A stretch of 64,000 nucleotides of DNA from Escallonia rubra (Eukaryota > Streptophyta > Magnoliopsida > Escalloniales > Escalloniaceae). A model generated the notes under the pieces. It saw nothing but the letters and a program-made list of their open reading frames with translations, did no database searches and had not been told where the DNA came from. Each line of letters starts with the position of its first letter. The first letter of the stretch is position 1. The stretch lies in NCBI GenBank assembly GCA_033065855.1, contig JAVXUO010001186.1, forward strand, positions 372,001 to 436,000, given 5' to 3'. A program made the translations under genes and the position numbers. Positions 20,003 through 64,000 of the stretch are shown piece after piece.

Positions 20003-23000
20003 TGTTGGGATAAGTATAGCTTCGCGTATACTTGTGCAGAAAACAACTAAGTACGAAAATACTGAAATGTAATTTACTAAACAGAACAAACAGTGTTAGC
20101 AAGAGCAATTAAAATTAACTCACAGCAAAATCAGAAAAACAACAATGGAGAACCGAGGCGTGAATTTGATTCACTGTCCTTAAGACTTTATTCGTCCCGC
20201 AACGGTGCTAACGGTCTCTTGACGAAAAGCCTCCCAGGATACAACGGTAGTACGTCTGAAAATAGGAGCACTCCAAATCTTCAGACCCGGCGAACCAAAA
20301 CAGCAACAGAACTCTTTCTTTTTGGACACTTGAAAAACGGACGGACAGAAGAAAATAAAATTCGGGATTAAAATTTAAGTAACTTCTGTAACTGACTCGT
20401 TTTTATATACAGGACCGGACCGGGACGGGACGGGCGGGCGCGTGCGTGGGGTGCACCTTGGGTCAACCTAGGTCCTCCCTCGTTACAAAAGTTGGGTACC
20501 CCCAAGGGGCCCAACCCTTAGCTCAAGGCTAAGCCTTATAAGGAGACAATTTGGCTTTATCTCTTCAATGTGAGATACTCTTTTCCCTTCAAGTTGAACC
20601 ACCAACTTTAACTTCAATTTTCTCATTCACCTTCCATTTGTTTTAAACATGTGAATATACCATGATCATCTATTCCAATAGATGAACATGAATCAATTTG
20701 TTCCTAACCAAAATATGGTTTGGAACCCTATTAGAAAATTGAGTCAAAGTTGCTTCTCACAATGGGTTTTAAAACCCAATTCCAACAATCCTCCACATGA
20801 ATAGAAAATTGACTGGACACTATACACAAAGAAACACTGACATAAGAAAGAGTTCCTTAGAATGACACTGCATCGGGATAGGTAGCTGATGGCCTTGAAC
20901 CTTTCCTAGTGAGAACTATCGGATTTATTGGTTAACCAGTGAACGTGATGTCTTGAACTGTTCAACCTTTAGTGTAAACCAAGACAATAAAACTTCACAC
21001 AGTATCGCTCAAACATTGTTTTGAGGTTCTCATTGTTGTGTTCATTTTGGCCCTGAACACTCCTGGTTTTCATGAGTACTCTATGACAATTCAGCCTTAC
21101 AATTCTCATAGAAGCGGCCCATTTCTTACTCACATAGGTGACTTCTTATTAAGAGGTTCCTACTGCACCCCCACTTGGATTTCCAAGATATAAGAGTCAT
21201 TAAAAGCATAGCTTAACCTAACCTTTTGTAGGTGCCACTGTCTTCTCATCATAGGAATGGATATTAGGTTTTAACCCCCCACAGTGCTCTGTCTGAGTCG
21301 CATTTACATAATTCAATTTCCCTTTGAACCTAGATCTTGGGATCTACAGTCAGCTAGGTAGGGTTTCCATTATGGCAACTCTTTAGTTCATAGGCTTAAT
21401 TCCCATTCCCCTCGATGACATATTTACTTTCTCTCTAGTCAAAGCTTTCGTTAACAGATCCGCAGTATTATCCTTTGACTTCACATAGTCAATAGAGATA
21501 ATTTCATTAGAAAGTAATTGTTTAACGGTATTGTGTCTGCGACGTATGTGTCTAGAGTTTCCGTATTACATATTACTTTGTGCTCTTCCAATTGCAGATT
21601 GACTATCACAATGTATGCAAATTGGTGGCACAGGTTTAGGCCAACTTGGAATATCCTCCAAGAAATTTCGAAGTCACTCCGCTTCTTCTCCTGCTTTATC
21701 TAAAGCAATGAATTCAGATTCCATAGTGTGTCTGGCAATACAAGTCTGTTTAGAGGATTTCCATGAAATAACTGATCCTCCCAATGTAAACACATATCCA
21801 CTTGTGGACTTTGTTTCATTAGAATCTGATTTTCAATTAACATCACTATATCCTTCTAATACAGCTGGATATCTTGTATAATGCAGCCCAAAGCTTAAGG
21901 TATATTTTAAGTACCTTAAAACTCTTACAATAGCTATCCAATGATTCTTCCCTGGATTGCTAGTATATCTGCTCAGTTTACTGACAACATATGCTATATC
22001 GGGTCTCGTGCAATTCATGATATACATTAGGCTACCAATTATGCGCGAATACTCTAATTGAGATATTCCTTCACCAGTATTCTTTGTTAGATGTAAATTT
22101 ACATCTAGTGGTGTCTTAACCGGACTATCATCATAACTTTTAAATTTGTCTAGCACTTTCTCAATATAGTGAGATTGTGACAAGACTAGTCCATTTGATG
22201 TTTTGGTAATTTTCATACCAAGTATAACATCAGCCACACCCATATCTTTCATATCAAATTTACTGGTCAACATTTTCTTTGTAGCCTTAATGAATTCATT
22301 ATTGCTCCCAATAATGAGCATGTCATCAACATAAAGACAAACAATGACATATCCTTTTTATGTGCCTTTAACGTAGACACATTATCACATTCGTTGATTC
22401 TAAAGTCATTTTCAATCATGACTTTATCAAAATTTTCATGCCATTGTTTCGGAGCCTGTTTTAGTCCATAAAGTGACTTAACAAGCTTGCACACCTTCCT
22501 CTTATGATCAGGAGCTACAAACCCCTCGGGTTGCTCTATATAGATCTCTTCATTTAGATCTCCATTTAGGAAGGCTGTTTTCACATCCATTTGGTGTATC
22601 TCAAGATTATTAATAGCTGCAATAACTATCAATATTCGAATGGATGTTATTCTTGTAATTGGTGAATATGTATTGAAATAATCAAGGCCTTCCTTTTGTC
22701 TATATCCCTTTACAACCAATCGGGCCTTATATTTTTTGACCGTTCCATCAGCTTTCATCTTTCTCTTGAAAATCCATTTACACCCTAATGGTTTATTTCC
22801 AGGAGAAAGATTCACTAGCTCCCACATATGATTTTGCATGATGGATTCTATTTCACTGTTAATAGCCTCTTTCCAATAAGGAGCTTCGGGACTCGACATT
22901 GCTTCACTGTAAGTACGAGGCTCATTTTGTAACAAATATGTTAGAAAATTAGGACCAAAAGATGTAGACGCTCTAGCTCTCTTGTTACGTCTTGGCTCAT

Positions 23001-24970
23001 CGTCCTCTTGTGAGGGTTCTTGGTCCATACTAGTTATTTCTAAAGAACTCCGTTCTTGTGCCACTCTATAAGGAAACACATCTTCGAAGAAATGTGCATT
23101 CCTTGTCTCCATAATGGTGTTGACGTGTATATCGTCAACTTCAGATTTATGCAGTAAGAACCGATATGCCGAGTTATGGCTTGCATATCCAATAAAAATC
23201 CCATCAACCGTTTTAAGTCCTATTTTGACCATTTTAAGTGGTGGGATATCTACCTTTGCTAGACACCCCCACACTTTAAGATATTTGAAAGAAGGAGGAC
23301 GTCCTTTCCATAGCTCATAAGGTGTCTTTTGCAACTTCTTGTGAGGTACTTTATTAAGTATATGATTTGCGGTTAAGACCGCTTCCCCCCACAAGTTATC
23401 CGGTAGTCCAGAATTTATCAACAAAGCATTCATCATTTCCTTTAAAGTACGATTTTTCCGCTCAGCAATTCCATTTGACTGAGGCGCATATGGTGCCATG
23501 GTCTCATGAATGATTCCGTGATCGGCACAAAAATTTTCAAGAGGAAAAACATATTCTCCACCTCTATCACTCCTTAGTACTTTGACTTTCTTGCTAAGTT
23601 GATTTTCAACTTCAATTTTGTATTACATAAATGCTTCCAAGGCTTCATCCTTGCTTTTAAGAAAATATACATAACAAAATCTAGTACAATCATCAATAAA
23701 AGTAATAAAATACTTTTTTCCTCCTCTAGATTGTACCACCTTTAAGTCACATATATCACTATGAATTAGACTTAAAGGTTCCGTACTTCTTTCAATTGAC
23801 TTGAAAGACGTTTTTGCCATTTTAGCTTCAACACAAATTTCACATGCTTTATGTGAGTCAAAATCCATTTTAGGCAAAAATCGATTTTTCACAAACTTTT
23901 GTAAAGAACCATAATTCACATGATCTAATCTACGCTGCCATAAATTAATAGATTCCAACAAGTAANCAGAAGAGATATTTTTATTAATATCAAAATTCGG
24001 TACAACTTTAGGCACGATGATCATTACATTTAATTTAAATAGACCATCACAAAGGTACCATTTTCCTACAAACATCCCACTTTTAGTGAGTACAAACTTA
24101 TCGGACTCAAATACTAGCTTAAAACCATTTTTACTCAACAATGAGCCCGAAACTAAATTCTTTCGTATATCCGGCACATGAAGCACATTGTTGAGACTCA
24201 ACTCTTTGTCGGATGTCATCTTTAAGACCACATTGCCCATCCCTTGCACCTTTGAAGAGGAAGAGTTTCCCATGAACAGATTCTCGTTGTTGGCACTCTC
24301 ATATGTAGTAAACATACTTCGCTCGGAGCACACATGTCGAGTAGCACCCGTGTCTACCCACCACTGTTTGGGATTTCCAACTAAGTTGACTTCGCATCCC
24401 ACCGCAGATAAATTCAAATCTGTCACATCCTCGGTAATTTTGGTAACTTCCGTCACATTGGCTTGAGAATGCTTTCCTTTCTTTCCTTTGTTCTTGCGAC
24501 TGTAGCAATCCTTAGCTCGATGGCCTGGCTTGTCGTACACATAGCAATTCCCACCAAACTTCTTCTTTTTATCACTGCCCTTGGAATTTGAGCCACTTGC
24601 TCCACTTGGACCGTCCGATTCGGAAATTTTTCTCCTATTTGACGGACCTTGCTCGACCACATTTGCCTTGGCTTCTTGATGATAATTGCCAGCCTTCTTC
24701 TCGGACTGGCGATTTTCCTCCTTGTTCCTCAATCTCCCAATCAAATCCTCGAGCTTCATCTCCTTGCGTTTATGCTTCAAATAGTTCTTGAAATCTTTCC
24801 AAGTAGGTGACAATTTTTCAATCAAAGCAGCCACTTGAAAAGACTCTCCAAGTACCATCCTTTTCGCATGAATATCATGCAGAATTAGCTGAAACTCTTG
24901 GACTTGACTAATCACTGCCTTAGAATCCACCATCTTGAAATCAAGGAATTTGCCGACTACAAATTTCTTT
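20003..24970 (-). mobile_element. Ty1/copia retrotransposon fossil
   Basis: Minus-strand gag and pol parts in order: a gag segment ([17 protein letters not shown]) with a zinc knuckle ([14 protein letters not shown]); protease ([12 protein letters not shown]); integrase (LWQRRLDHVNYGSL, HSDICDL, NGIAERKNRTLKEMM); reverse transcriptase (GCKWIFKRKMKADG, QMDVKTAFLNGDL, SLYGLKQAPKQWHENF); and RNase H near 21420-21900. One LTR of 785 bp (20003-20787) runs from TGTTGGAATTGGG to TATCCCAACA on the minus strand, preceded by a GTGGAGGAT polypurine tract. A matching second LTR was not seen, so no target duplication can be read. The element is broken in a handful of places. It lies within the second CACTA gene, so it is younger than the CACTA insertion. 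The lineage may be Tork/TNT1-like. Confidence 0.93.
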
Positions 24971-25430
24971 GAGCCGGATGATTCTAATGGTCAGCCATTG
25001 GAAGAGCAAGACCGCCCATATGTCTCCAAGAAGGCAAAGGCCATCCGCGTAAGTTTGTTTTTGCAGCTGATTTTTTATCTATTTGGTTTGATGAATCTCT
25101 AACTCAACTTGCATTTTGCATGAGTTACAAGATGCATATGCTGTGAGATTTGATGAAATTAGTTCTCAGGAGCCCAGCTCTTCCTGGATAGACTATGATG
25201 CAGCAGAATTGTGGCGACAAACGCCTGGGGTTCGCGACAAGAAAGGACGTATACGTGGTACTCGCAAAACCGCACGAGATGCCAGGGCATCGATGCATAT
25301 TTCACTGGATCAGCTTCCATCCTCCGAAAATTGGAAAGACGAAATTGCTAAGATTGTGCAACATGAGGTGCAGAAGATGAAAGAGATTGAAATTGCTAAG
25401 CTTGTAGAGATTGAGGTGGAAAACGGATGA

Positions 25431-26126
25431 AAGAGAAGGACATGCAGCAGGTACTCTTTTCTTTGATGCATCGTAGTGATTCTCTTGCATTAATTTGAAT
25501 GAAATTGTTAAAAAGGAAGGGGGAAACCTGCTGTAATGGGGCTGCCAAAGGGCAGCAGCTATGTGAGGTTCTGTGGTGTTTTTGTGTGTGTAAAAGTGTA
25601 AAAGGAAGGGAGAACTGTTGTGTAGTGTGTTTTGTGTGCGATTGAGGAAAAAGAGGGAAAAGGAAGGGCTGCCGAGTGGGCAGCTGTGTTGGGGGCATTG
25701 TGCGTCAGTTATTGTGATGTTTAGATGGATGTAAAGGAGGAAAATAGGAGAGGGAGAGGCTGCCAAGGGCAGCCATGGTAGGGTGGTGCAATTGGATTGT
25801 ACAATTTGGTTTGTTTGGTTGGTGTTACTTTTAGGTTAAAGTCATTGACCGTCTATTGAAAAAAATGAAACCTTCTTTCTTGGCTAATTAGTTTTGGTGT
25901 GTTCTGGGGCTGAACACATGGGCAATTTACATGTCAAATTTATCTGTGCATTAATTGAGATAAACAGCTAAGCTTAGAAGATTACCAAGTTTGTTGTGTC
26001 TGTTTGCTGATAGATAGTGTATTTATATGGTGGTGGAACAGTTTTTCTAGTATGAGACAGTTAATTTTTCATTAATACTGCACGAAATACATCCTTTAAC
26101 ATGCCTTTACTCGCTTTGATACAGGC
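25431..26126 (+). other. Intron-like region of the second CACTA gene
   Basis: Noncoding stretch between two exon blocks. It holds three short inverted words of the kind GGGCTGCC...GGGCAGC at about 25537, 25665 and 25750, spaced about 100 bases apart in GA/GT-rich sequence. I recognise no gene in it. Confidence 0.5.
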
Positions 26127-26469
26127 CGAAGTTAGCGCGATTGATGGTAGTGAGAATGGCAATGATGAAACATTCGACGAGCTATGTGGATGATTGTCTT
26201 ATGTGACCAGATTTGACGTTATGTTTGTTGGGATTTTTGTTCATTTTCGTAACCAAGCAACTGATTGATTTAGATGTATTATTGTTCACTTTTGGTGATA
26301 TTTAACAAATGTTGAATATTTGTTATCTTTAGTTCATTATCGGATGTTGACGTTGGATTATTTAATGATGGATTATTATTGTCAATAGTTGTTGCATTAA
26401 TTAAGAATAGTATAATCTATTTATGCATATTTAATGATTTTTATTTTCAAAATTTTTAGCTCTTAAATA

Positions 26470-26967
26470 TGATTTTTGCGACGGAATTAGCGACGGAAAA
26501 AATCAATTAGCACCTAGAAATATGATTTTTGAGACAGAATTAGCGACGGAATATTTCCCTTTAGCGACGGAATAATTCTCCTTTAGCGACAGAAAATATA
26601 AGCTCCAATATATGGTTTTGCGACGGAATTGGCGACGGAATATCCGTCGCTAATGATTTTTTTTAAAAAAAAAAATTTAATTATATTTTAAGTATATTTA
26701 TTTATTTTTAAAAAAGCTAAATTTTCTGAAAAATTGCAAAATAGTTTTAGCGACGGAAATTCCGTCGCTAAAGGATGACCAATTCCGTCGCTAAAGACTA
26801 AGGCATCACTGATGGAACACAAATTCCGTCGATAAAACCTTTAGCGACGAGGGTTTAGGCGACGGAACTTTACCGACGGAATTTCCGTCGCTAAAGGCTT
26901 TAGCGACGGAATTTGCATATTTAGCGACAGAAAAATTCCGTCGCTAAAGGTTAATTTTCTTGTAGTG
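26470..26967 (+). repeat. CACTA right sub-terminal repeats and TIR
   Basis: At least a dozen TTAGCGACGGAAT / ATTCCGTCGCTAA words in both orientations, ending in AATTTTCTTGTAGTG. Local inverted pairs would form hairpins. Confidence 0.93.
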
Positions 26968-32827: not shown

Positions 32828-35020
32828 GAAGAGAGAGCATCCATTGGGTAAGATTTCTTATCAAATATTTTGTGTATAAATTGGTGGGTATTGTGGATTT
32901 AATGTGTATATGTTTTTCCTTCACTGTGTGCGCGGGCGCGCGCAGTAGGTGTGGTGTGTGTTGCTATCGGTTGTGTGTGAGTGTGTGAGCGTATATATGT
33001 TGTGTTGTGTGTGTCCTACTGTGTGTATTTGAGTGTAAATGATGGGTGTAAATATGTGTAAGTTTGTGTTACTGTGTGAGAGCGGGTGGGGGAGAGAAAT
33101 GTTTGTGTTTCGGAAGGGGTAGACTGCTGGGTTTTGGTAAGGAAGAAGGTGCTGAGGAGAGATGTAACACCCCAAAATTTTCGGAGCGTTAACCAATCAA
33201 TCGATCAAATCCTCAATTATCTAATCAATTCAATACCACTAAGGATAACCCAATAACATCCATATCAGAACTCTACAATAACTCAATTGTCTCAGTAAAC
33301 CGTTCTCATCACAAAACAAATGTAAAGTACCTAATTTATTAAGTTACACATTGGTTCCCTCGCAGGGGCTTAAGTAAAAAATAATGAAAACATTAAGCTA
33401 TTCCGTAATCAAGCTCATTTGTTCCGGAATCTTACTGACGATTACTTCCTGCAGAAGGGAACTGAAAAATGGAGTGAGCTTTCGAGAGCTCAGTAAGGTC
33501 GCTTAAAATTCAGTAGAGGATACAAACGATTTGGAGAATTTATTTCAATGGCAATATGGGAAGAGATTAATCTCAATCCCTCAAATCAGAAATCAATAGA
33601 AACATTTTCGATTACACTGAAACAATGAAGATGATATTGAACATGAGTACATGCAAAGCCACACAGGTAGTGCAGGGTAACACTTAGCAAAGCCACACAG
33701 GCAGTGCTCACTAACAAGATGGTTACATATGCATATGTTCACTAGCTATACCATTAAGGTACTTTTCCCGCAATAACAAACCATCCTTATATCACCCCAA
33801 TACAGACCATCCTTATAACGCCTCAATACACTATCTCATGTCAATATTCAGTATGCAAAAATCGATAATACAATGATTAAATAGATGCACAACGAGAATA
33901 AATATATAGCATCGAATAGAATTTTCAATAAACGTGTCAGGCTCAAAACAGGGTATTAATGACAATCAATGCAATTTCATAACAATTATATCCGAGTCCA
34001 ATGAAACTTCAATAACAATTTGGAAAGACATTTACGATATCAAATAGATGAAATAGGGTTTCCGAAGAAATCCCTTACCTCGATCCAAATGAGTTGAAGT
34101 TAAAACGCTCTCGATCAAATCCTCGGAATTAACCTAAGTTAACAAATCACTTATCAGAACACTATCCATACTAATATATTATAAACCTAATATAACTATC
34201 CCCAGCGTAACCCATATCTCTACCCAGAACAATGAAATTCGAAGCGGGTTCCACACACGGCCAACTTATGCCGAAACTCGTCACACTCCTTGAGGCTCAG
34301 AAATACCCCATAAATGTTTTTAATATTCATTAAACATTCTTTATGGCTTAATACTGCATATGGAATAAAAATATATATTTTGAATATTTTTTAATAAAAA
34401 ATAATTTCTTTAAATATACCAAAAACCCATAAATTGCCATAATTGTTTCTAGCTGGAAATAATGAGCAAACTTTTTTATAAAAGCCTTAATATATGTATG
34501 AAAATTATAGAAATAAAAATCAGAATTTAAAAGGCATTAAAACTATTTCTTTGTTTTGCTAAATTCCATGCAATACAGAAAATGATAATAAATCAACTCC
34601 AAAAATCAGCAAATTTATACTGAGTCTTTCTTATACTATAAAAATATTACTCTAATTTTTTTAGAACATTTTCATGAGTTTAAAGGCTTAAAAGAATGCT
34701 ATAAGTCTAAACTTGCAGAAAATATAACAAATACATACGTTATCGGAAAAATATGAAATTTTAACAGAAATTCTAGTATTACCCAACAACTATTCTTGTA
34801 AAGTTTCAACATTTTAAGATAATTGAACAATGCCCAACATCCACGTGGTACAATTGTGCCTAAACCATTTTTCCGTTAGCCCACTCTTCCTTGCATTTTC
34901 CTCTTCCTTTCATTTCAGTTTCACTTCCACTCACCTTCACATGCAACCTGTGTGGATATACTATTTTCACCACGTACACGCACCCTTTTCCATCACCAAC
35001 TCACCGCACATAACACTCCT

Positions 35021-36163: not shown

Positions 36164-37055
36164 ACTAGGTTATTTGATTGATAATTGATGGATTGATACT
36201 TAAAATAATTTATTTATTTTCAGAATGGAAAAGTACTTTCAAAAGAAAGCAAAGGTGGAATAGTTATTGCAGTCTAATAAGAATGAGTGTAGAAATCAAT
36301 ATACTATTCAACAGTCTATGATTCCAACAGTAAGGGACAAGGCTCCCATTGTGTATCGTGATATTCATTCTGGACATTCAAGCAGAGTTAGCGATGAGTT
36401 CAATTCTGACGAGCTTATTGCGGATCCTGGGTTGCGTCCGAATATTTTGGATTATGGTCCTAATGTTCGAGATAAAGTTCGACGAGCGTATTGGTCGAAA
36501 GGTCCTTGCCAACCTCGTCACCACAATTTTCCATTTACACAATTCGGAACTCAGTCTCGTCGATTTGTTTCTTCTTGGTTTGACATTTATTCAAGTTGTT
36601 TCTTCTTGGTTTGACATTTAACTAGGTTATTTGATTGATAATTGATGGATTGATACTTAAATAATTTTTTTTTTTCATAATGGAAAAGTACTTTCAAAAT
36701 AAAGCAAAGGTGGAAAAGTTATTACAGTCTAATAAGAATGAGTGTAGAAATCAAGATACTATTCAACAGTCTCCAATTTCAACAGTAACGGACAAGGCTC
36801 CCATTGTGTATCGTGATATTCATTCCGGACATTCAAGCAGAGTTAATGATGAGTTCAATTCTGAAGAGCTTATTGCAGATCCTGGGTTGTATCCGAATAT
36901 TTTGGATTATGGTCCTTATGTTCGAGATAAAGTTTGACGAGCGTATTGGTCGAAAGGTCCTTGCCAACCTCGTCACCACAATTTTCCATTTACACAATTC
37001 GGAACTCAGTCTCGTCGATTTGTTTCTTCTTGGTTTGACATTTATTCGAGTTGGT
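36164..37055 (+). repeat. 455-bp tandem duplication at the start of the hAT transposase gene
   Basis: Units begin near 36164 and 36619 with TAGGTTATTTGATTGATAAT, include the splice acceptor, ATG and about 130 codons, and differ at only a small percentage of bases. The junction carries a short extra repeat of TTTCTTCTTGGTTTGACATT (36569 and 36597). Confidence 0.95.
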
Positions 37056-38793
37056 TGGAGTATAGTGTAGCAAAAGATGAAGCATATTGTTTGTGTTGCT
37101 ACTTGTTCGGAAGTGCTCATGGGGAGCAAAGGGGCTGTGGTACTATTGTTAGGCATGGTTTTAACGATTGGAGAAAGAAGGAGAAATTCCAAAAACATGT
37201 TGGAGAAGTTGGTAGTGTACACAACCTTGCTTTAACTAAGTGTCAAGCCTTTGATAACCCTCAGCAGAGTATTGAAGTAGTTTTGTCCAAGCAAACAGAT
37301 GAAAGTAGGGTTCAATACCGTACTCGCTTGACTGCATCAATTGATGTTATTCGGTTTCTCTTACGTCAAGGCTTGTCTTTCCGTGGGCATGATGAATCTA
37401 AAAATCAGGGAAATTTTCTAGAACTGTTAGAATTTATTGCTGATTACAATGAAAATGTGAAAAAAGTCGCGTTGTCGAATGCTCCTCAGAATCTCAAATT
37501 GACATCACCAAAAGTTCAGAAAGAAATTGTTAGTGCCATTGCTGGAGAAATAAGAGATGCAATTGTTGGGGACATGAAAACTGAATTATTTTCCATTTTA
37601 GTTGACGAGTGTCGTGATATTTCAGTCAAAGAACAAATGGAAGTTGTCTTGAGATATGTGGACAAAAGAGGACGTGTGATTGAACGTTTTCTTGGTATTG
37701 TCCATGTTGCTAATACCGCTGCCTTATCATTGAAAGACGCGATTGACAGTTTATTTGCAATGCATGAATTGAGCATTTCAAGAATTCATGGACAAGGCTA
37801 TGATGAAGCAAGTAATATGCAAGGTGAATTCAATGGTCTTAAAACCTTAATTCAAAGGGAGAATGAAAGTGCTTATTATATTCATTGCTTTGCTCATCAA
37901 CTTCAGCTAACTCTTGTAGCCGTTGCAAAAAAACATTCTCAGATTTCATTGCTCTTTAATTTGGTTGCTAAGGTAGTAAACACTGTGGGAGTTTCATGCA
38001 AGCGAAGAGATGCTATTCGAGAAAGTGAAGCCATTAGACTTGCTCATGACCTTAAGAGTGGTGATATCGTCAGTGGTCGAGGTTTAAATCAAGAAACTAG
38101 CATCAAAAGAGCAGGAGAGACCCGTTGGGGATCACATTACGGTGCATTATTGAATTTGAGTCATATGTTTGCTTCAGTGATATGTGTGCTTAATAAGGTT
38201 GTTGAGGATGCTACAGATTATGAACAGAGAGGTGAAGCATTGGGTCTTTTGAACTCGGTGCCAACTTATGATTTTGTCTTCAACATGCATTTGATGACAA
38301 ATATTTTGGGGATGACGAATGAACTTTCACAAGCATTACAAAAGAAAGATCAAAACATTGTGAATGCAATGAAGTTGGTAAGAATAACAAAGCAACGATT
38401 GCAGGACTTTAGAGATCATGGGTTGGAAGACTTGCTGGAAGAGGTCTCACAATTTTGTGTAAAACACGATTGTTAACCCTACGGTTATTTAACCTAGGAT
38501 TATATTTGTTTTTTATGATAACTAACATTAATGATTATGCTGTTTAACAAGCATTGAGATGATGAAACAAAAGGAACAATTAGACGAGCAACACGGTCAA
38601 AGACTCTCAACGGAACGCATCAAAGAGGAAATTCGACGATTGAAGTTTTCATGCTTTTATTTCCGTATTTGTAAACTAGACATAGAGAGATGATCGTTAC
38701 GATGACTGTATACCTAGAACTTGCCCATAGGTTTCCCTTGCATACATAGAAAGTTTTGCATGCTCTAAGAGCAGGCAACGGCATTTTCATGGA

Positions 38794-39005
38794 TGCAGTT
38801 GACTGCATTGGGATGCAGTCGACTGCATGTTGGGGAGTAGGGTATTACAGTCGACTGCATCGGAATGCAGTCGACTGCAATACTTCCAGTAGCCTATTAC
38901 AGTCGACTGCAATGGATTACAGTCGACTGCAAGTTGAAAATTTGAATTTCCGACGGCTACTTTTTGGGTTACAGTCTACTACAATGGGCATTGCAGTCGA
39001 CTGCA
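38794..39005. repeat. Array of eight 14-bp GCAGTCGACTGC palindromes
   Basis: Eight copies of TGCAGTCGACTGCA or one- to three-base variants (TACAGTCGACTGCA) lie within 212 bases, just upstream of the TATA-like CTATAAATA at about 39067. Position and symmetry suggest LTR promoter elements bound by a dimeric factor. That is inference. Confidence 0.9.
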
Positions 39006-39063
39006 TTTACCGTTTGGCGCATTTAATGCCCCACCTAACCCCAAACGGTCATATTTATTCCCA

Positions 39064-39076
39064 GCTCTATAAATAC
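39064..39076 (+). promoter_or_regulatory. TATA box of the SIRE-type LTR
   Basis: CTCTATAAATACTC lies about 60 bases downstream of the palindrome array and upstream of a CATCTTGGGCATTG start-like region, the standard U3/R layout of these LTRs. Confidence 0.6.
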
Positions 39077-41305
39077 TCATCTTGGGCATTGTTTTCATTC
39101 ATCAATTGCATTCAAAGCTCTCATATCTTTCATATTCTCAAAGATCAAAGCAATTGTTCAAATCTCTCTTGTTTTCATTGATTTCTCATCCTTTTCAAGA
39201 GAGCATTTATTGTGAGCTTACATTAGAGAGAGATACACTTTCATAAGTCATCATACACTCATCTCTCTTGTTCTAGTACTTCAACTTGTACTCATCTACT
39301 TCTTAAGAGTGAAATCTTGTACACATTTTTTCATTGAAAGGTTCTTGTATCAAAGCTTGGGGTTGTCAAGCTTTGGAGCTTTGGGTTTGTCAAAGCTTGT
39401 TCTTGATGTGGGCATAGCATCAAGGGATTGTAAGAGGTTCGATCTTGACCCGTAAGGAAGATCATACTAGTGGATTCTAGGGCCTTTCAAGGGACTTCCT
39501 TGAAGGGATGGACGTAGGCTTGTGGGTATATCAAGCCGAACCATTTAATTCTCCTTGTCAAGTATCTCTAAACCCTTCTCTCTTTACATTATTGTTTTAC
39601 ATTTGTGTTGAGATTGGTTGTTTGCTTATTTGTGTTATTGAGATTGAGGTTTGTTGTTTGTTAAATTTTAAAGTAGTCTTCAAATCCTATTCACCCCCCC
39701 TTTAGGGTTATTTTATTGGTTTCAACGATATTGACGTATTGGACATGAGTGCGAGGTTTGTAGCCCCGGGGAGGCAAAGACGTAATGCTGAAGAAGGTAC
39801 AAATTTTTACCATTATCGTGTTGATATTTTTTTAACGGTTGTTGATTTGCAAATCAGTGAGTTGAATAATCGTTTCAGTGAGGTAACCACGGAGTTGCTT
39901 ATATGTATGGCATGTCTCGATCCAAGTGATGGTTTTTCTGCTTTTAATAAGCAGAAGTTGATACGTCTTGCACAGTTTTATCCATATGACTTTTCGCCGA
40001 TAGAGCTTAAGGTACTTCAAAGTCAGCTCGAGACTTATATTATGGATGTAAGCTCCTGTGAAGAACTTTATGAAGTCAGGGGAATTGGTGAACTTGTTAT
40101 AAAGTTAGTTGAGTTGAAAAAGGATGTGCGATATCCTTGGGTATTCTTGCTTTTGGGATTTGTCTTATTTTTACCTGTTGCAACTGCTACTGTAGAAAGA
40201 GCTTTCTCTGCAATGAAGATAATAAAGACTCGACTTCGGAATCGCATGGGAGACGAATGGATGAATGATAGCTTGGTTTGTTACATCGAGAAAAATGTCT
40301 TCAAAACTATTACAAATGAGGCTATTATCGAACGCAACCAATTTTCTGCGCCTCATCGAGTAGTTATTTAGTGCTTTCGTTTGTAAACACTGAAATGTGT
40401 ATTTTATATTCCCTTTTTTTGTGTTATAAAGAGTCTTTAGTGACTATCATGAAACTTAATAAGACCTTTTAGATGTTTTTTAGTATGTTTTGTGTATTAT
40501 CAAAAAGTGCACTTTGTTTTTGTGTGCTATTTTACTTATAAAAATATTTATCTCCTTCGATATATTTATATATATATATATATTGTGCACCATCTTCATT
40601 CCATTTCACACCCATATTATATTTCATCTCCCACGCCCACTGTCGTGAGGACGCCCACTGCCGTGCGCAGTGGGTTCTCCCTCTTCAATCTCCCTCTTTT
40701 TTTTTACACACTCACACACAAAATATATTTACACACACCGCACACATATATGTGAACACACACTCTCCAGTAAACCTCACTCACTCATGTTTGCACTTAC
40801 AAACACCTACACAATTGCATTACTTGTACATAACTCAGACGCCCACTACCTCATGGCAGTGGGTCTCCTACTTCTTCTTTCATTTACACCTATACATAGT
40901 ATATATAACACAACTCACACACACACACACATGTATTTCCTTATCCATTTCTTTCCCAACTGCAACTCTCTCTTTCTTCAAGTTATATACACTCACCCCA
41001 AACACATATCACCCACACAGACCCATGCTACACCCTTCTTCCTTCTTCTCCTTTCTTACATACTCACACACATTTATGTAAACACAATTTATACACATTA
41101 CACCCACAATTATGCGCCACTGCCGTGAGATAGAGAGAGGGATGAACCACTGCTGTGAGGCAGTGGTTCATCCCTCTCTCTCTATCTCATCTTTCTTTTC
41201 TTCTTCCCCAACACTCTCATACACTCCACAATCAGATAAACACACACCTAGCATGCACCAGTTGCCTCACGGCAACTCCAAACATGCACATATATAACAG
41301 ATACA

Positions 41306-53751: not shown

Positions 53752-56700
53752 GGCTTGTGATTGGAGTTAATCGGTCAAGGTCACAGCCACTATCATAGTT
53801 CACATGGTTCTAACATTAAAAGAAACATCCTGCTTATCGAGTATGGACCATTCAGAAGGATGTTTGCATGTGGTGCGATCACTGAGTGCTACATGCATAA
53901 TATTAGGGGTCAAATAAGGTGGTTCCATGGCAAGTAGAGGAGAGACGCTTATGGAACTGTTGTGGGCCACTAGGAATATAAGTTCAAGAATGGTTGATTA
54001 GCAATTGCAAGAGCAATCATTGACATTGAGGTTTGCATGTGGTTTCTTTACTAGCTTTCTGGTGGTAGCCTTAAATTGTTCCGAGGAAGAAATTGTACCT
54101 GGAGATGTTCAGGACAGCCGAAACTCATCTACTTTTTGTAAATACAAAGATATTTACCTTGTTAGAAACTTGGTTCCACTAGCCAAAACAATACGTTGGA
54201 ACCAGCTTTTGATCTTCTGGTTCTTTGCTACATATTTCTCGGATACAACAATAAGATTTCTGCTTAGTTTGATAACATACACAGAGGAAGTAAATCATAC
54301 GTGCTCCTACATGCACGAACAAACATGAGTGACCTGATTGCATATGTTAGACTTGCTGTTTGAATATCATGTGGCATTCGCGTATGCTTCCACTGAATTT
54401 TCTTTCCCCATAGATTTGCTCATTACAAGAAATTTGCCCAATTCAAGTTCAATCCAAAATAATTTGCTCATTGCAAACATGATTTGCTATTTTTTCTTGT
54501 GCATTTTTGTAAAACAGCTATTGAACATGAGGAGATCAATTTTCTGGTGCTGTTAATTACATCTTTTCCGCTATGCATGTGGCCATGGTGTATCATATAC
54601 AAATCTAGTTTATGTAGCAAAAAAAAAAAAAAGATTTAAGTTTCCTTGATTTGCTTTTCGTGGCCTTACATGCATCTCTCTCTCTCTGGACATCGTTATT
54701 GGAACTCCTACTCGCTTGAAGGACTTGATTGAAATAGGGGTTTGCATTCTAAAGGAGGTTTCTTTAGTGGTAAGTATATGATATCCTTTTCTATTGTGTC
54801 ATGCTAGGGGGCTATTGTGCGGTCATTTTGCTAATAATAGTCCCTCTATGTTTGTTTTCTGTAACTTGATGACCACGGAAAATACATGTGTTTTTCAACT
54901 GTGAAGTTTATTTTGCAACTATTATCAATTGTACTGACTGGGAGTATTTCACTTCTGTGGAAAGGCTCTTTTCCTGACGGAGGAGGTCATTTAGAAATAG
55001 GTTTGTGATGGTGAGCACAATTAAAGTCTTGGTTCATGGTAAATTTAATGGAGTAGGAAATTGTTTACATGTGGTAGTACGTTGTTGGAGTTGGTTCATG
55101 AGGAAGCTCAACCCTAATAATCATTCCTCCCATCTCTCTCTTTCTCTCAAACATCCAAATCTGGCTTCATATCTCATTGTTTTAGGCGCCAATGTGAGGG
55201 TTTAATCTAGATGCTTGTTTATCTGTGTTGTTGTAAGAATGGGGGTGTACTACGGTTGTCTTGATGCAAGAAACTATTCTTATAATGGTTTATGTATGTT
55301 GTTAATGTTGATATTGTGATCATACTACAAATGTAATTCATACTACGTTGTAAGAAAGTATGCCTCAGACATTTTGTCCAAGTTACAACAATATGTTTTT
55401 CTTTTCGTCTTTCTATTGCAAAATTTTCATGTTTTCCAATTAATGTTCTTGTGGATAAGAGAGAAAAAGTTATATCCACCTAAGCACTATGGCCCAAAAT
55501 TCCCAAGCCTAAATCCTCTTTAGTTTAGAGGTTTGCTGAACTTGTATCCATAATTTTTAGACATCCACAAGCAAGCTAGTAATAGTAAGTATATGAAATA
55601 ACTTCGCGAGGCAATGTATTAGACCATTACTGAAATGCAGTTCCTATTTAGTGCATATATGTACTCAAGTAGCCCGCAACACATTGCTATAAGTAGTTGT
55701 ACAATACTATGAACTTATAGATGCTACATAAGGCCACGGAAAAAAGCTAAGCTGGAGTGAAATCGTGAACCTTTGGAAACAGTACAAGGCAATTCTTAGC
55801 TGCTGCAGAACTCCAATAATGGTAGATGGACTTGACACAAAGAATTGGCTTACGATACTAGTGGTAAATGGCCTAATCATAGCAGATTTTATTAGTCTGT
55901 ACATGATACTTTAAAACATGCACCCCACTATATCGATGTTGTTTGACGCTACACTCACATGTCAGTGCTCTGCCTGCTTGTCCAGTTTTTGCTTATGCGA
56001 TCCTATTGATAATAGAAATATTTTCTTTGAAATAGCTATTTACCGATGGATTCTTATTGATCTTACTTCTAGCTGCAACTTGATTGTGATGCCTTATAAG
56101 GTCAACTATATATGGCAGCTTAGTATATTTGTTATGTTTGGATTTAACACACTATCGTGCACAGAACTTGCTATGAGTGCAATACAAATTTGATGATAGA
56201 TCACACTAAGAAAATTCTTCCATAATGTTAATGGGTTGGACAGGTTATCTAGTCGGGTATGCCCCGTGATATGTCTAAATGCTAATTACTGAAAAAGATA
56301 GATTGAGAAACACCAATGGGTTCCCAATGTCTAAATGCTAATTATTGGAAAAGATAGATTGGCTAAGTACAACTGTTATCTTTATAAATGAAGCTTTAGA
56401 TTATATTAGTACATTTGGTGAGTTGTTTGTGGAGCTGAATTTAGCACAAGTATGGCCAGGCCAATGTTCCTGTTTTTCTATCTATGCAATGGTTGGTACC
56501 ACCTTTATGCATTAGGGCGGGCAGTACTTGTTGCATGTATCAATGTGTTTGTATGTTTTACATCATTGCCTAAAGAACTTATGCATTGTAGCAAGCTGCA
56601 CCACATCAGGTTGAACCTGTTTGTTCCCTTTTATACTTTCGATTTTTGTTTTTGTCTTTTCTTTCTTGGGTTTTGGAAGGCCAATTATATGTTCAGATTT

Positions 56701-57371
56701 TGCTGAAACTTATCACACTACTATGTTCGGTAACATTTCTTAGCAATGGAATTCGATAAGGCATGTACTTTGTCAACTGTAGGGATTTTGTTAGATGTTT
56801 TTTTGTAGAACTTTGGCAAACTAAATATATTTCTGGTCTTTAACTAACATACAAGGAACCTAATTGCAGATCTTTAGTTGATGCAAAGTGTGCTATATGC
56901 AAAGCTTCGGATGAGACCATCTGATACCGTAGTTGTTAATTGTAAGTTTTTGTTGTTCTCTTTTTCCTTTTTTGTTTGTACTTAATTAGAAGTTTATCAG
57001 CATTCAACCCTCTTATGTTTTGTCGTCGATCTTAATTAGAAGTTTATCAATATTTAACGTTTTAATTAGAAGTCTATTCCACATGAAGTACCAAAATGCC
57101 TGCTACCAATAGATTTCCCTAGGGAATAACAAGCATATCATTAAACCCAACAATAGAAGCAACAATAAAATATGCACTCTTACTTCTAAGGATAATTAAC
57201 CCACAGGTCATGAAAACCTATTTTTTCTACTACTTCTCATGCCATGATGATCAAAAGAGTAAACTGAACTTCATTAAAATAGGTTAACTAAATGGATAAG
57301 CCATAATAATTTATGTGATGTAAGGATATAATTCTTTTGTTTATATGTACACTCTCAGGCTCAAAGTCAAT
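53752..57371. other. No recognised gene
   Basis: AT-rich sequence with a few short frames (54005-54328, 55918-56193, 56452-56706) that lack recognisable domains. CTGGTATTTC-like and TTTCAG words could be splice sites of a transposon leader, since a 3' splice site (CTCTCAG, about 57353-57359) directly precedes the next transposase exon. I see no other structure. Confidence 0.35.
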
Positions 57372-60013
57372 ATGGATAACAGTTGGATTAATATACGAAA
57401 TCGATTGGATCATTTGTATGAGAAAGAGGCTAATGATTTTGTTGAGTTTGCCTCCAAGGATATACCTAATGCTACAGAGATACTATGCCCATGCACGAAA
57501 TGCCATAACATGAGATTCGTGAAGAAAGTAGATGTGGCAGAACATATTGTGGTCGATGGTTTTCTAGAAAGCTATACACATTGGATTTTCCATGGCGAAT
57601 CATCGTTGACTTCAAGTTCTATTCCTGAACCAGCCGTGGGTGACAGAACACAAGAAATGATACACGATGCTTTTGGTGTCCCTATGTTTAATCAGCTAGA
57701 TAGGGTAGGTAGTGAGGGAGGAAATGAAGATGGTGATAGCGTAGATGATACAACTAAGATGTTCTTCAATCTCGTAAAGGAAGCTGAAAAAGAGTTGTAT
57801 CCGGGTTGTAAAAAGTATTCAACACTCTCGTTCTTGATTCTACTGTTGAATATAAAGTGTCTCAGTGCAATGAGTGACAAGGTATTTACAATGTTGCTTA
57901 AGTTATTGAAAGATGCATTCCCTAGAGGCGAAACATTACCGAAGTCATTTTACAAAGTTCGAAAGATAATTGGGAATTTAAGGCTTGATTATAAGAAGAT
58001 ACATGCATGCCCCAATGACTGTATGATATACTGAAAAGATACATCTTATGAGCGCGAGGGTATACATTGTCATACCCCAAGATGCAAATAGTCAAAGGCT
58101 ATATATAACAAATAATGATGATGAAGTTAAGGAAATGAAGATGTCCGCAAAGGTAGTGGGGTACTTCCATTTGATACCAAGACTTCAGAGGTACTTCGTG
58201 TCACCAAAGACAACATCTCTTATGAGAGATCATGCGGATAAGCATACTGATGATGCTGATTCTCGTGCTTGGAAACATTTTGATAAACTTCATCCATATT
58301 TTGCGAGTGATCCACGCAATGTAAAACTTGGGTTATCTTCGGATGAATTTAACCCGTTCATGAGTATGAATGTAGCTCACAGCACATGGCCAGTAATTTT
58401 GATTCCATATAACTTGCCTCCTTGGAAGTGCGTGAAACAAAAATACATGACAATGTCCCTTCTAGTAGATCTAATAGATGGTCCTCAGGGACCAAGTAAT
58501 GACATAGATGTGTAGTTACGTCATTTGGTTGACGAGCTCAAGGAATTATATATGGATTGGTTTAGACATGAATAATGCAGCTAGTAATCGAATGTTTAAG
58601 ATGCACTCTTCAATGACATGGAAAATAAGTGATTTCCAAAATATGTGATCTTGTCGTGATATAGCATGAAATGGAATTGGCTTGTCCTTCATGTCACAAG
58701 TATATGAAGTCTCGTCGTCTGTGTCATGGAAAAAAAAGAGTGCCATGCGACACATCGTAGATGTTTGGATCAGGGGCATAAGTTTCGAAAAGATAAAGTT
58801 TCTTTTGATGGTATAGTTGAATTAGATCCAAAAGCCAATTCCATTATCCGGAGCTGGGTAAGTGTAAAGCTCAAGAAAGTAAGAAGAGGAAAAGAGACAA
58901 CGGTGAGGACAACAGTGAGGACAACAGTGAGGCACATAATTGGAAAAAGCTAAGTATATTCTTTGAGCTCTCTCATTAGAAGGACAATTTGCTACGCTAC
59001 AATCTTGATGTGATGCATATTGAGAAAAATGTATGTGATAACATACTGTGGGCGTTGTTGAATATTGATGGCAGCGGAAAGGACAATTTAAATGCTTGCA
59101 ATGATATAAAGGAAATGGGTATTCGAAAGGCACTGCATCCTCAACAACGGGCTGGTGGCAAATTTTATTTGCTACCATCATCTTTCACATTGGACAACAA
59201 GAACAAATATGATATGCTGAAAGTTTTGAAGCAGGTTAAAGTTCCAGATGGTTATGCTTCGAATATATCACGACGTGTCAATCTTCAAAAAAAGAAGTAT
59301 TTCGAGACTCAAAAGTCATGACAACCACATCCTAATTCAACAGCTACTTCCTATCTCCTTGCGAAGCGTGTTGCCAGAAAACTAGTGAAACCTTTGATTG
59401 TGCTAAGCAATTATTTTAGGCAAATTTCCTCAAAAGTCATGCATGTTGATGAATTTAATCGTATTCAATAACGTATTGCGCTTACACTTTGCCACCTTGA
59501 TAGGATATTTCCCCCATCATGTTTCGATATCCTGGAGCATTTGNTTATTCATTTAGCCGAAGAAGCTTTGATAGGTGGACCACCACAGTATCATTGGATG
59601 TACCCCATTGAGAGGTGTGTTACTGCTTCCAAATTTAGTTTTGCGTTATTTGTTAGTTATGGCCCACGTGTGATAACTTTCTTGTAGAGATTTCTTTTTT
59701 CATTTGGCATTATACGTACCTTTTCACTCACAAGGGCTATGTAAGAACTCAAAGCCGTCCAGAGGGCTCAATTGTGAAAGGATATTGGTTAGGAGAATGC
59801 ATCACATTTTGCTCAAGGTATCTAAATGACGATGTTGAGGCAAAATTGAATCAACCAGTTAGGCTTGATGATGGCGGAGACAGTTCCATCAATTCAGTAA
59901 GAGGTCGCCCGTTAGGGGTATTAGGGGGATTTGTACTTGATGACATTTCATATGCACAAGCACATCGATATGTTTTTGTTAATTCTGATGCAATAACTCA
60001 ATATTGGTGGTGA
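57372..60013 (+). pseudogene. Second TNP2-like CACTA transposase gene (decayed)
   Basis: Starts MDNSWINIRNRLDHLYEKEA, the usual transposase-associated start, with a zinc-type CPCTKCHNMRF. The TNP2 core blocks follow: LIPRLQRYFVSPKTTSLM, WKHFDKLHPYFA, NVKLGLSSDEFNPF, WPVILIPYNLPPWKC, then LRHLVDELKELY after a stop, YNLDVMHIEKNVCDNILW, VPDGYASNISRRVN, IFPPSCFDILEHL and ECITFCSRYLNDDVE, ending at 60013. Stops fall at 58032-58034 and 58513-58515, among others. The segment 58560-58980 is scrambled relative to the family, including a GTGAGGACAACA triplicate near 58900, and 59320-59460 has further frame changes. About six or more breaks in all. One base at 59544 is N. The ATG at 57372 is preferred over the one at 57345 because family proteins begin MDxSWI. 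Confidence 0.85.
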
Positions 60014-60329
60014 CAATCTAACATGAATACGGTTATTTTCTCTATGTACGCCTGGTTTTGTAACTCAATATATTAATTTATGCTGTGAACATCATGCATC
60101 CATTAGAAGGAGTAATCATTGACTTCACCACATGATGTCAATAAAGTTTATAATGAGAGTTTCCAATATGGTTTAGAAATCATGTAAGTAACATCAGTGC
60201 AGTAAGCCTGAAACTTTTTACACCATAAAAAATAGGTCCAAAAGCTATACGAGGAAGGTGATGAGGCATTATCTAAAGAACTTATATCATTGGTGATGGG
60301 TCCTCTAAAGTAGGCAGAGAAATGTACAT

Positions 60330-60565
60330 GATATGACAATTGCCGACAGAGTTTCTGTCGTCAATTTTATTTTCCCTATTTTAATTTATTTTCTTTTTTT
60401 GGTAATAATTTATTACCCAAAATATTTAGCAACAAAATTCTGTCACTAAACGTTCGTCGTATAAAACTTTAGCGACATAAATTGCATTGCAAAAACTTGT
60501 TCCTTTAAAATAGTTAGACTTTTAGCGACAGAATAAAGTCGATCTGTCGCTAAAAGTCAAACTAA
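60330..60565. repeat. CACTA sub-terminal repeats (TTAGCGACAGAAT type)
   Basis: Words such as GCCGACAGAGTTTCTGTCG, TTTAGCGACATAAATT, TTTTAGCGACAGAATAAAG and CTGTCGCTAAAAG in both orientations. They resemble those of the 10.5-27 kb element more than those at 51.1 kb. No TIR follows. Confidence 0.7.
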
Positions 60566-60599
60566 TTTCAAATTTTTAATACCTAAACATGTAATCACA

Positions 60600-61012
60600 A
60601 TCCAACAATCCTGCAACAACATTCTAACAATAAAATGTATACAAAATTCAAAAGGGCACGGGAGCTGGGTACATTAATAGAGTAGGGGGGCACGGGAGTG
60701 GGATACAAAATGTTAGGAGGGGAAGGGCTTATCAGGGTTCGGCGAGTCCCGGATATGATGGGCATGTCCTGTAGCAGTGCCATGCATGTAAAGGAACAGA
60801 CACATTAATCTCGATAACAATCGTATATTGTTCGCTAATTAAACGTATATAGTGGTTGTACCTGATTATGCACCGTGATCCTCTTATAAACCTCCGCATC
60901 AATGCGACGGACCTCGTCCTCATGTAACGACGAGCCCTCCACGGTCGGTGTCTGCGTTAGTGGAGATGCAACGGGGGGTGGGGACGCTCCTATCACGGCA
61001 CGTGTAGTTATA
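60600..61012 (-). pseudogene. Exon remnants of a CACTA second gene
   Basis: Minus-strand block about 61012-60863 is open and reads RAVIGASPPPVASPLTQTPT then VEGSSLHEDEVRRIDAEVYK, ending at a CAG|GTAC splice-donor-like site. A second block near 60783-60600 is Pro-rich (TLISPSPPNILYPTPVPPYS). Pro/Ser-rich linkers and acidic helices are usual near the C terminus of these proteins. It faces opposite to the adjacent TNP2 gene, so two elements or an inversion are involved. Confidence 0.45.
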
Positions 61013-61019
61013 CCGGGGA

Positions 61020-61390
61020 GGCCAATTAAAAGTGATTAACCCTAATTTACTGTTAATTTCAACTCTGATTAGCCATAATTAAAACTGATTAACATTAATT
61101 AACCCAAATTTATTGTTAATTTAATCCCTAATTAGCCCTAATCACTATTGATTAACCTAATTAAACCTTGATTGTCCTGATAAATCGTAGACAAACCCTA
61201 ATTAAACCCAGTTAGGGTAATTAACTGTAATATGTTCTAATTAGGCTCAACTAGCCCTAAGTAGCCCGAATTAATCCCTGAATAACACTAATTGAGTCTA
61301 ATTAAACGTAATTAACTGTAATCAACCCTAAATAGCTCGAATGGCCCTAATTGCCCATAATTAACACATTAACTCCCCATTTTCACCTTA
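61020..61390 (-). repeat. Degenerate (TTAACCCTAAT)n array, left side
   Basis: TTAACCCTAATT-type words, the reverse complement of the arrays at 62391-64000. It forms the outer part of the left arm of the inverted repeat. Confidence 0.85.
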
Positions 61391-61485
61391 ATTGGCTATT
61401 ATCTATTTCTGTTCGGTACAAAATCATTTTGTTATAATGAACTTGAGCAGAGAAAAATATCATTCCTAAATCCTTTAATATCTAA

Positions 61486-61883
61486 CGATCGCCAAATCGG
61501 GATTCTCAAGTAAACCCAGTGCTTTTGGTTGATAAGTAATGGACTCAAAAAATTTCCCTTAGCTCGTCATGTTGAACCATCTCGTCTAAGATCTTATCTT
61601 CCAGGATTTCAGATAACACTTTTGACTCGCAACTCTCCATGTCTGCAGAAGATAAGACTTTCTAAGACAAAAGATCTTTCTTAGCCTGTCGCAGACATTC
61701 CCTGCCCTCCATTGTTCTTGAGGTAATTAGATGATAAATACACACAATTTTCTTCAGACCAATTCCGTATGCCCGACATATGGCTTGCCTTTCAACTGAT
61801 GGATTGCAACCAATATCAAGCAACACAAATCTCGACGCCCCAACCAAATTTATGCCCCACATAGCTTGCCTTTCAAACCTCAT
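61486..61883 (-). pseudogene. SNF2 ATPase C-terminal fragment (CLASSY-like), left arm
   Basis: The minus strand from 61883 reads MWGINLVGASRFVLLDIGCN, then PSVERQAICRAYGIGLKKIV: Snf2 helicase motif V (GINLVGASR) and motif VI (QAxxRAYxIGxKK). YHLITSRTME and RQAKKDLLS follow, then, after a stop, SSADMESCESKVLSEILEDK and ILDEMVQHDELREIF. The order and spacing match the end of CLASSY/DRD1-type SNF2 proteins, chromatin remodellers that help Pol IV/Pol V in RNA-directed DNA methylation. Only the last roughly 130 residues are present and the frame is broken more than once. Exact subfamily is uncertain; SNF2 membership is clear. Confidence 0.75.
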
Positions 61884-61945
61884 TTAGCTCGAATTAGCCC
61901 TTATTAGCATTAACCCTATTTAGCTCGAATTAGCCCTAATCGGCC

Positions 61946-62303
61946 CTGGTTGGGGCGTCGAGAGTTGTTTTGCTTGATATTGGTTGGAACCCATCAGTTG
62001 AAAGGCAAGTCATATGTCGGGCATACATGATTGGTCAGAAGAAAACTGTGTATATATACCATCTAATTACCTCAGAAACAATGAATGGCAGGAAATGTCT
62101 GCGACAGGCTGAGAAAGACCTTTAATTTGTCTCAAAAAGTCTTCTCTTCTGCGGACATGAAGAGTTGCGAGCTAAATGTGTTATCTGAAGTCTCGGAGGA
62201 TAAGATGGTTCAACATGACGCGCTAAGGAAATTTTTTGAGTCCATAACTTACCAACCAAAAGCACCGGGCTTACTTGAGAATCCTGATTTGGTGGATCGT
62301 TAG
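61946..62303 (+). pseudogene. SNF2 ATPase C-terminal fragment (CLASSY-like), right arm
   Basis: The plus strand 61946-62122 is open and better conserved than the left arm: LVGASRVVLLDIGWNPSVER, then QVICRAYMIGQKKTVYIYHL and RQAEKDL, covering helicase motifs V and VI with the expected Gln of IGQKK. A TAA follows at 62123. The remainder continues in the next frame (LSQKVFSSADMKSCELNVLS, then VQHDALRKFFESITYQPKAP) to a stop at 62303, which may be the native C terminus. Compared with the left arm, four residues (ILDE) are missing before MVQHD. It cannot code for an active ATPase. Confidence 0.78.
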
Positions 62304-62390
62304 ATATTGAAGGATTTAGGAATGGTGATTTAATTTCTCTGCTCAAGTTCACTATAACCAAATGATTTTGTACCGAACCTAAATAGATAA

Positions 62391-63305
62391 TAGCTAATTA
62401 AGGTGAAAATGCTGAGTTAATGTGTTAATTAGAGGTAATTCGAGCTATTAAGGGTTGATTACAATTAATTGCGTTTAATTAGACTCAATTAATGTTATTC
62501 AGGGTTTAATTCAGGCTACTTAGGGCTAATTGAGCCTAATTAGAGCATATTACAGTTAATTACCCTAATTGGGTTTAATTACGGTTTATCTACGATTTAT
62601 CAGGATAATTAGGATTTAATTAGGTTAATCAGCGATGATTAGGGCTAATTAGAGATTAAATTAACAGTAAATTAGGGCTAATTCGAGCTAAATATGGTTA
62701 ATGCTAATGAGGGCTAATTCGACCTAAATAGGGTTAATTGGGTTTAATTAGACTTAACTATTTTTAATTAGGGTTTAAGTAAGAGCGAATTAAGTTAATT
62801 AGAGTTAATATGTTAATTGGGGTTAATTAGGATTGAGTCACTTTAGAATTCGTTGAGTTCATTCATAGAGTTGATATTGTCCCACCTATGATTGAGTTCA
62901 GGGTTTAAGTATAAGTTAGGGTTAGGGTTAGATTGTACTTAGGATAATTATGATTAATTTGGCATATTTTAATAGGATTTAATTAGAGTTTAGTTAGGGT
63001 TAATTAGGGTTACCTATGAATGTGTTAGGGATTAATCGGGGTAAATTGAAGGTTAATCGGGGCTATTTAGGGTTAATCAGGGTTAATTATGTTTACTTAG
63101 GGTTACTTAGGTTAAATAATAGTTAATTAGAGTGAATCGGACTTAATTACAGTTAATTGAGCTTAATTAGGATTGATTGGGGTTGATCGGGGTTAACTAG
63201 GTTTAATTAGGGTGAATCAGGGTTAATTATGGTTAATTGTAGTTAATTAGGGTTACCTTGGGATGTGTTAGGGGTTAATCGGGGTTAATCAAAATTATTT
63301 ACGGT
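62391..63305 (+). repeat. Degenerate telomere-like (GGGTTAATTA)n array
   Basis: Runs of TTAGGGTTAATTAGGG, TTAATCGGGGTTAATC and relatives, with a basic unit of about 10-12 bases and heavy drift. A longer period of about 243 bases is visible: the stretch TTAGGGTTACC...GTGTTAGGG.TTAATCGGGG occurs near 63004 and 63247. Confidence 0.85.
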
Positions 63306-63665
63306 TACCCCTTGTGGAGGGATTCAATTTTCATGTGACTCCCAACTACCAATCAAAGGGGCTAAGGTATCAATTTCTAAAACTTCACATTAAAACAATT
63401 CTGGAAATCAGAAAGAATAATTCAACATCAGAATAACTTGAAAAAAAATTATTCTAATAAAAATAATTCCACAAGTCACAGCAAATGCCAAGAATATAGC
63501 ACTATGCAGGGCATGGGGGATTGATGAAACATAGATACTACAGATAATTGAGGGTTTAGTGTACTATGTAGAATGTACATAAACGTAGACATGTAAGTTT
63601 TGCATTTAATGAAATAAATGACATTTCACAAAAAATTAAATCAGAATAATTCTAACATGTACTTC
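63306..63665. other. No gene recognised
   Basis: AT-rich sequence interrupting the TTAGGG-like arrays. No coding frame or repeat was recognised. Confidence 0.45.
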
Positions 63666-64000
63666 GAGTAATTTAGATGTACTTAGGCTTTATTAGGCTA
63701 ATTCAGATGTAATTCGAGTAATTTTGATGTACTTAAATTAATTAGCCTTTGTTAGGGGTAATTAGGGTTTATCCGAGGTAATTAGGGTGTAGGGTTTAAG
63801 GTTAACTGGTTCAAATAGGTTTAATCGGGGCTAATTATGGTTAATTGGTTCAATTAGGATTAATCAGGGCTAGTTAGGGTTTATTGGTTCAATTAGGGTA
63901 AATCGGGATTAATTAAGGCTAATTGGTTCAATTAGGTTGAATCGGGGTTAATTACAATTAATTGGTTCAGTTAGGGTTAATCGAGTTTAAATATGGTTAA
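63666..64000 (+). repeat. Degenerate (GGGTTAATTGGTTCAATTA)n array, runs off the window
   Basis: Continuation of the telomere-like words in a new higher-order form: AATTGGTTCAATTAGG recurs about every 55-60 bases from 63800 to 63970. Confidence 0.8.

Follow-up and report, generated by a model that had tools for sequence, protein, structure and literature searches.

Small RNAs derived from pseudogenes have been surveyed in rice (PMC2708354). The passages of that survey drawn on here describe a screen for adjacent paralogous pseudogenes, which yielded two cases, and report a length of 24 nt for 53.4% of the antisense siRNAs that pseudogenes give rise to, a size that is read, for some of them, as fitting local repression. 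Action in trans is also argued there, from 38 gene cases and the two adjacent-pseudogene cases. The locus described below is likewise a truncated and broken gene copy, in our case with an inverted paralogue next to it. In rice, however, the small RNAs were measured, whereas those of our locus are hypothetical.

Mu killer of maize (PMC3440606) is a partial inverted duplication of a coding region that could in principle give a hairpin RNA, as could the locus studied here. On the other hand, Mu killer is derived from a transposase gene and its silencing has been demonstrated, while our locus comes from a host-type gene, has arms diverged by about 10% and has no known effect. In the portions of the paper cited here, its authors propose as a new model that the small RNAs arise from short antisense transcripts, with a long hairpin still allowed. 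The CHS cluster at the soybean I locus (PMC3804491) is, like our locus, an inverted repeat of a host gene, but in the sections we cite it spans 27 kb, has measured siRNAs and gives a visible phenotype.

One more comparison concerns CLASSY genes. CLSY1-4 are partners of Pol IV, as stated in the cited part of PMC7617993. Silencing that acts on a CLASSY gene is described in rice for OsCLSY3 (PMC12680349, as excerpted); that loop runs through MITEs in the promoter and not through an inverted repeat of the coding sequence. Among the literature matches listed, no title or abstract start describes a CLASSY inverted repeat. No CLASSY-like peptide strings occurred in the papers searched, and word searches of PMC12389316 (0 passages) and PMC11603163 (7 passages) gave no usable sequence motif.

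Set beside these systems, our locus is real but ordinary and of a familiar type: a pseudogene duplicated in inverted orientation within repeat-rich DNA. We put the probability that it is a neutral duplication, decaying in its surroundings, at about 0.75.

Structure of the inverted repeat

The window, i.e., the whole stretch of DNA that was analysed, is 64,000 nucleotides long. A minus-strand blastn self-comparison revealed one inverted repeat at 61097-62683, seen as a single match of the span onto itself with 83.2% identity (gaps and spacer included) and 1689 bits. When 56001-64000 was shuffled 20 times by mononucleotide, the top match reached 57.2 bits, and chance is therefore excluded. The match ranks as the strongest of 11 inverted pairs in the 64-kb window (E<=1e-10), with the runner-up at 338 bits; one of the 11 pairs (61876-61940/62671-62735) is itself a part of this locus. 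The sequence-only reading had described an inverted repeat with a spacer of about 100 nt, and the self-match confirmed it at coordinates close to those first assigned (Table 1).

Table 1. Coordinates of the features at and near the inverted repeat (window positions)
Feature	Position	Strand	Basis or remark
Decayed CACTA transposon, interrupted, left of the array	57324..59603	+	Pfam PF13963 8.2e-25, PF02992 8.1e-36
Left stretch of the degenerate 10-bp (TTAATTAGGG)n array	61035..61400	-	TRF; extent to ~61400 by eye
Left arm of the inverted repeat	61097..61846	-	blastn self-match; arm alignment
SNF2 C-terminal pseudogene fragment, left arm	61485..61847	-	tblastn with arm peptide, 65% over 121 columns
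Spacer between the arms	61847..61946	.	not unique sequence
SNF2 C-terminal pseudogene fragment, right arm	61946..62303	+	tblastn 61946-62122 and 62031-62300
Right arm of the inverted repeat	61947..62683	+	blastn self-match; arm alignment
Right stretch of the degenerate 10-bp TTAATTAGGG-like array	62424..64000	+	TRF and sequence; runs off the window

Aligned to each other, the arms are 89.6% identical over 728 sites (K2P 0.114) and differ by 54 transitions, 22 transversions and 6 gaps of 1-12 nt. From the spacer outward, each arm consists of about 115 codons of an SNF2 C-terminus, about 95 nt of UTR-like sequence, which we take for a 3'UTR, and the degenerate 10-bp array. The identity is nearly equal in the three parts: 0.901 in the array, 0.906 in the UTR-like part and 0.888 in the SNF2 part. 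The arms had been read as carrying SNF2 sequence. That assignment stands for the inner part of each arm; the outer part is the UTR-like sequence and the array.

The left stretch of the array contains a 63-bp tandem duplication at 61035-61164 (TRF), and the right stretch is interrupted by about 350 nt of other DNA (~63300-63660). Because the array continues past the right arm to the end of the window, no unit can be seen to stop at the right edge of the inverted repeat. The array units are TTAATTAGGG/TTAATCGGGG, a 39-bp period is seen at 63796-64000, and the array resembles no family that we could name.

The spacer has two recognisable parts. Positions 61851-61876 are a second, 26-nt copy of 61768-61795, with a local score of 40 compared to a maximum of 26 in 500 shuffles, and positions 61876-61940 are an inverted copy (92%) of the array piece 62671-62735.

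Identity of the SNF2 fragment

In phmmer searches of PDB, the right arm peptide matched a RAD54-like protein best (E 1.9e-8, 37.7 bits), followed by ATRX (1.1e-7, 35.3 bits), a SMARCA chain (1.3e-7, 35.0 bits) and ERCC-6 (2.1e-7, 34.3 bits). For the left arm, ERCC-6 (4.5e-7) and RAD54-like (4.6e-7) were level at 33.4 and 33.3 bits. The right arm had 76 distinct PDB sequences at E<=1, with SNF2-type names nearly throughout the best 60 of the 76. The similarity covers motif V-VI and the C-terminal helicase region and supports an SNF2 ATPase as the gene of origin, and the earlier assignment of the fragment to this region of an SNF2 helicase was upheld. In Pfam the short arm fragment matched neither an SNF2 nor a helicase family.

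The scores of several SNF2 subfamilies are too close to fix the subfamily. A parent outside the CLASSY/DRD1 group, e.g., a Rad54-, ERCC6- or ISWI-like ATPase, would agree with these narrow score differences in the right arm and with the tie in the left. CLASSY names were absent among the best 60 of the 76 PDB matches of the right arm and among the 37 rows for the left arm. Two observations point away from such a parent. An approximate tail sequence of Arabidopsis CLSY4 aligns to the fragment at 49% over 111 columns (104 bits), which is a lead and not a test, because this tail may contain errors or be biased towards the query. CLASSY proteins also lack a SANT-SLIDE or chromodomain tail and end shortly behind the helicase, and the fragment may do the same: the right-arm frame ends in DLVDR-stop at 62301-62303, possibly the natural end of the gene, although a mutation that made the stop is also possible. 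We regard a non-CLASSY parent as rather unlikely. The CLASSY assignment, resting on the RAD54-like best match of one arm and on the approximate CLSY4 tail, is no more than plausible.

An intact parent gene was absent from the 64-kb window, where only the two arms matched well in tblastn and the next match had an E-value of at least 3.4. Pattern scans of the viral_contigs collection (1 and 18 stretches) and of genome_contigs (37), both of them non-plant collections, confirmed no relative.

Lesions and coding constraint

An open reading frame is missing in both arms. In the left arm the frame is interrupted by a stop at 61662-61664, and this arm has, relative to the right arm, one extra nucleotide near 61556 and one fewer near 61489. 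The right arm, relative to the left, has 4 additional nucleotides near 62127, causing a frameshift, and lacks 12 nt near 62207. These lesions are judged by comparing the arms with each other, in which gain and loss look alike. No frameshift or internal stop is common to both arms, and the copied piece may therefore have been uninterrupted at the time of duplication.

Functional SNF2 proteins carry motif VI as QxxxRxxRxGQ. The motif is changed to ICRAYGIGLKK in the left arm and to ICRAYMIGQKK in the right arm. The second arginine has become methionine in the right arm and glycine in the left, and in the left arm the last glutamine has become leucine. Both SNF2 copies are pseudogenes with no functional motif VI and not working members of the family.

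Up to the left-arm insertion, the differences at codon positions 1/2/3 were 11/9/13 among 91/90/90 sites (p 0.70). The tail beyond the insertion, with 18 sites per position (54 in total), had 0/1/4. Combined, the counts were 11/10/17 (p 0.32), with a weak lean to the third position in the short tail; about 13 of the 338 SNF2 sites, located beside the left-arm insertion, are left out of this count. Maintenance of the arms as coding genes after the duplication was rejected, since the combined counts have no significant third-position excess and both frames are broken.

Origin and age

We propose that a 3'-terminal piece of an SNF2 gene, probably CLASSY/Rad54-like, came to lie beside the degenerate 10-bp array in transposon-rich DNA, and that an inverted duplication would then have copied the piece together with the adjoining array. 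In and beside the spacer, the 26-28-nt tract that occurs twice and the array piece in inverted orientation suggest a template switch during replication. Both copies would since have decayed as non-coding DNA. Taking substitution rates between 6.5e-9 and 1.5e-8 per site and year, the K2P distance of 0.114 would place the duplication, very roughly, 4-9 million years ago. At present the pseudogene is most likely itself silenced as repeat DNA, with any small RNAs acting mainly on their own locus.

Alternatively, the SNF2 tail and the array could together make up one dispersed repeat family, and the arms would then be two of its insertions, or two of its units in opposite orientation, and not the result of a local duplication. 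Both arms are flanked by the array, a further inverted array piece (62671-62735) is represented in the spacer beside the start of the right arm, and the left array has a tandem duplication of its own, all of which would suit such a family. However, the SNF2 tail has no other copy in the window, and a comparison of 60960-61110 with 62650-62860 found one direct repeat of 8 nt and none of 9-12 nt; this test for a target-site duplication is weak, because it is not apparent where the unit ends on the right. We consider dispersed units improbable and prefer a local inverted duplication.

If neutral decay is the right account, the locus is one more broken gene piece, and its main use is as a caution that the shape of a hairpin is no evidence of silencing.

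Folding, pairing and methylation

The earlier claim that a transcript across the arms folds into a hairpin was borne out by RNAfold. The minimum free energy was -1030 kcal/mol for the + strand and -1072 kcal/mol for the - strand, and the predicted pairs that span the midpoint numbered 676 of 697 (+) and 695 of 712 (-). With G.U pairs allowed, there were 8 (+) and 9 (-) helices of at least 21 bp. A transcript, if made, would thus still fold across the arms in this model. With a fold that keeps this strength, dicing could take place should the locus be transcribed.

Comparison of 61020-61846 with 61947-62780 gave three exact matches of at least 20 nt (23, 20 and 20 nt). All three fall short of 24 nt and lie in the array part; the SNF2 parts of the two arms share no identical stretch of 20 nt or more. 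Each arm would therefore make its own, diverged siRNAs.

Selection that keeps the hairpin paired left no sign in the wobble counts. In the + transcript, 25 transitions keep the pairing (G.U) and 29 break it (A.C; p 0.68); the 95% interval for the G.U share is 0.33-0.60, and the counts reverse in the - transcript. Such a comparison of two arms excludes a strong bias only, and siRNA production needs no such selection.

We observed no clear methylation scar either. Transitions occurred at 9 of 64 CG sites compared to 45 of 459 other C sites, both arms pooled, an excess that is not significant (p 0.28), so there is no positive sequence sign of long-term methylation. The CpG observed/expected ratio was 0.689 at the locus and 0.688 in the window. 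Rfam at the gathering level gave 0 matches in the 64000 bases, and ARAGORN with the bacterial code gave 0 tRNAs.

These results bear on the functional claim of the sequence-only reading, in which the hairpin is transcribed and diced to 21-24-nt siRNAs that repress the CLASSY parent, a feedback on RNA-directed DNA methylation. In favour of the idea are the folding of the repeat across both arms, the natural inverted duplications that silence their relatives, as described for soybean CHS (PMC3804491) and maize Mu killer (PMC3440606), and the rice CLASSY gene OsCLSY3, itself a target of RNA-directed DNA methylation through OsCLSY4 acting on two MITEs in its promoter (excerpted text of PMC12680349). 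Against it stand the absence of a pairing-preserving bias, the SNF2 part with no exact duplex of 20 nt, the unproven subfamily of the fragment and a window with no parent. The proposed siRNA and feedback role thus found no sequence support, the divergence of the arms looks neutral, and we consider the role very improbable. Neutral divergence is compatible with recent or accidental siRNA production. That the hairpin is transcribed in some tissue, and that its small RNAs lower a CLASSY-type gene as a lineage-specific brake on the DNA-methylation machinery, is equally remote. If small RNAs against a CLASSY gene did arise here, the self-limitation of the methylation pathway could be approached directly, by deleting the locus.

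An assembly artefact, for which one could cite the three isolated N bases in the window, is very improbable: with 76 differences in 728 sites and 6 gaps, the arms are too unlike to be a single sequence that was duplicated falsely, and this divergence, with different indels in each arm, appears to speak against a simple assembly duplication.

Genomic surroundings

The CACTA transposon left of the array has the Transpos_assoc and Tnp2 transposase domains, and a second Tnp2 copy at 12457-14685 matched it in tblastx. Elsewhere in the window there are hAT-type fragments, an F-box ORF and a copia element. With these remains and the F-box ORF present, the DNA appears plant-like.

A Pack-type transposon with a captured gene piece would be bounded by terminal repeats and a target-site duplication; at the edges searched, neither terminal repeats nor a target-site duplication of 9-12 nt was seen to delimit the locus. 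A matching pair of CACTA-type ends around it was likewise not found, the right side leaving the window; lone ends of this type occur to the left, CACTACAA (51093) and CACTACTA (56716). At 60.6-61.0 kb we noted by eye, from the translations, a possible two-exon remnant on the minus strand, which had no Pfam match. A small palindrome with GCGACAGA/TCTGTCGC is located at 60504-60571.

Several features lie farther from the locus. At 10458-26967, CACTACAAGAAA ends face each other with 14 of 20 bases alike, and the flanking triplets differ (ATA, ATT). Tnp2 ORFs (~12.5-15.0 kb) and copia ORFs (21.8-25.0 kb) lie between these ends, and the whole may be a CACTA element of 16.5 kb into which a retrotransposon is nested. 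At 26478-26967, next to a CACTA end, GCGACGGA/TCCGTCGC motifs are dense and run in both orientations, as in a subterminal repeat region. A 103-bp palindrome at 17400-17502 is 93% self-complementary, possibly a small hairpin transposon, and its neighbour at 17271-17387 has an inverted relative at 34663-34779. Two ORFs at 36938-40368 with DUF4371 and hAT dimerisation domains are hAT-type transposase remains, and a tandem repeat with the palindromic unit TGCAGTCGACTGCA is found at 38791-38936. The F-box ORF (224-949, PF00646 1.1e-9) is the sole host-type gene recognised among the 8 of 16 listed ORFs that were run on Pfam.
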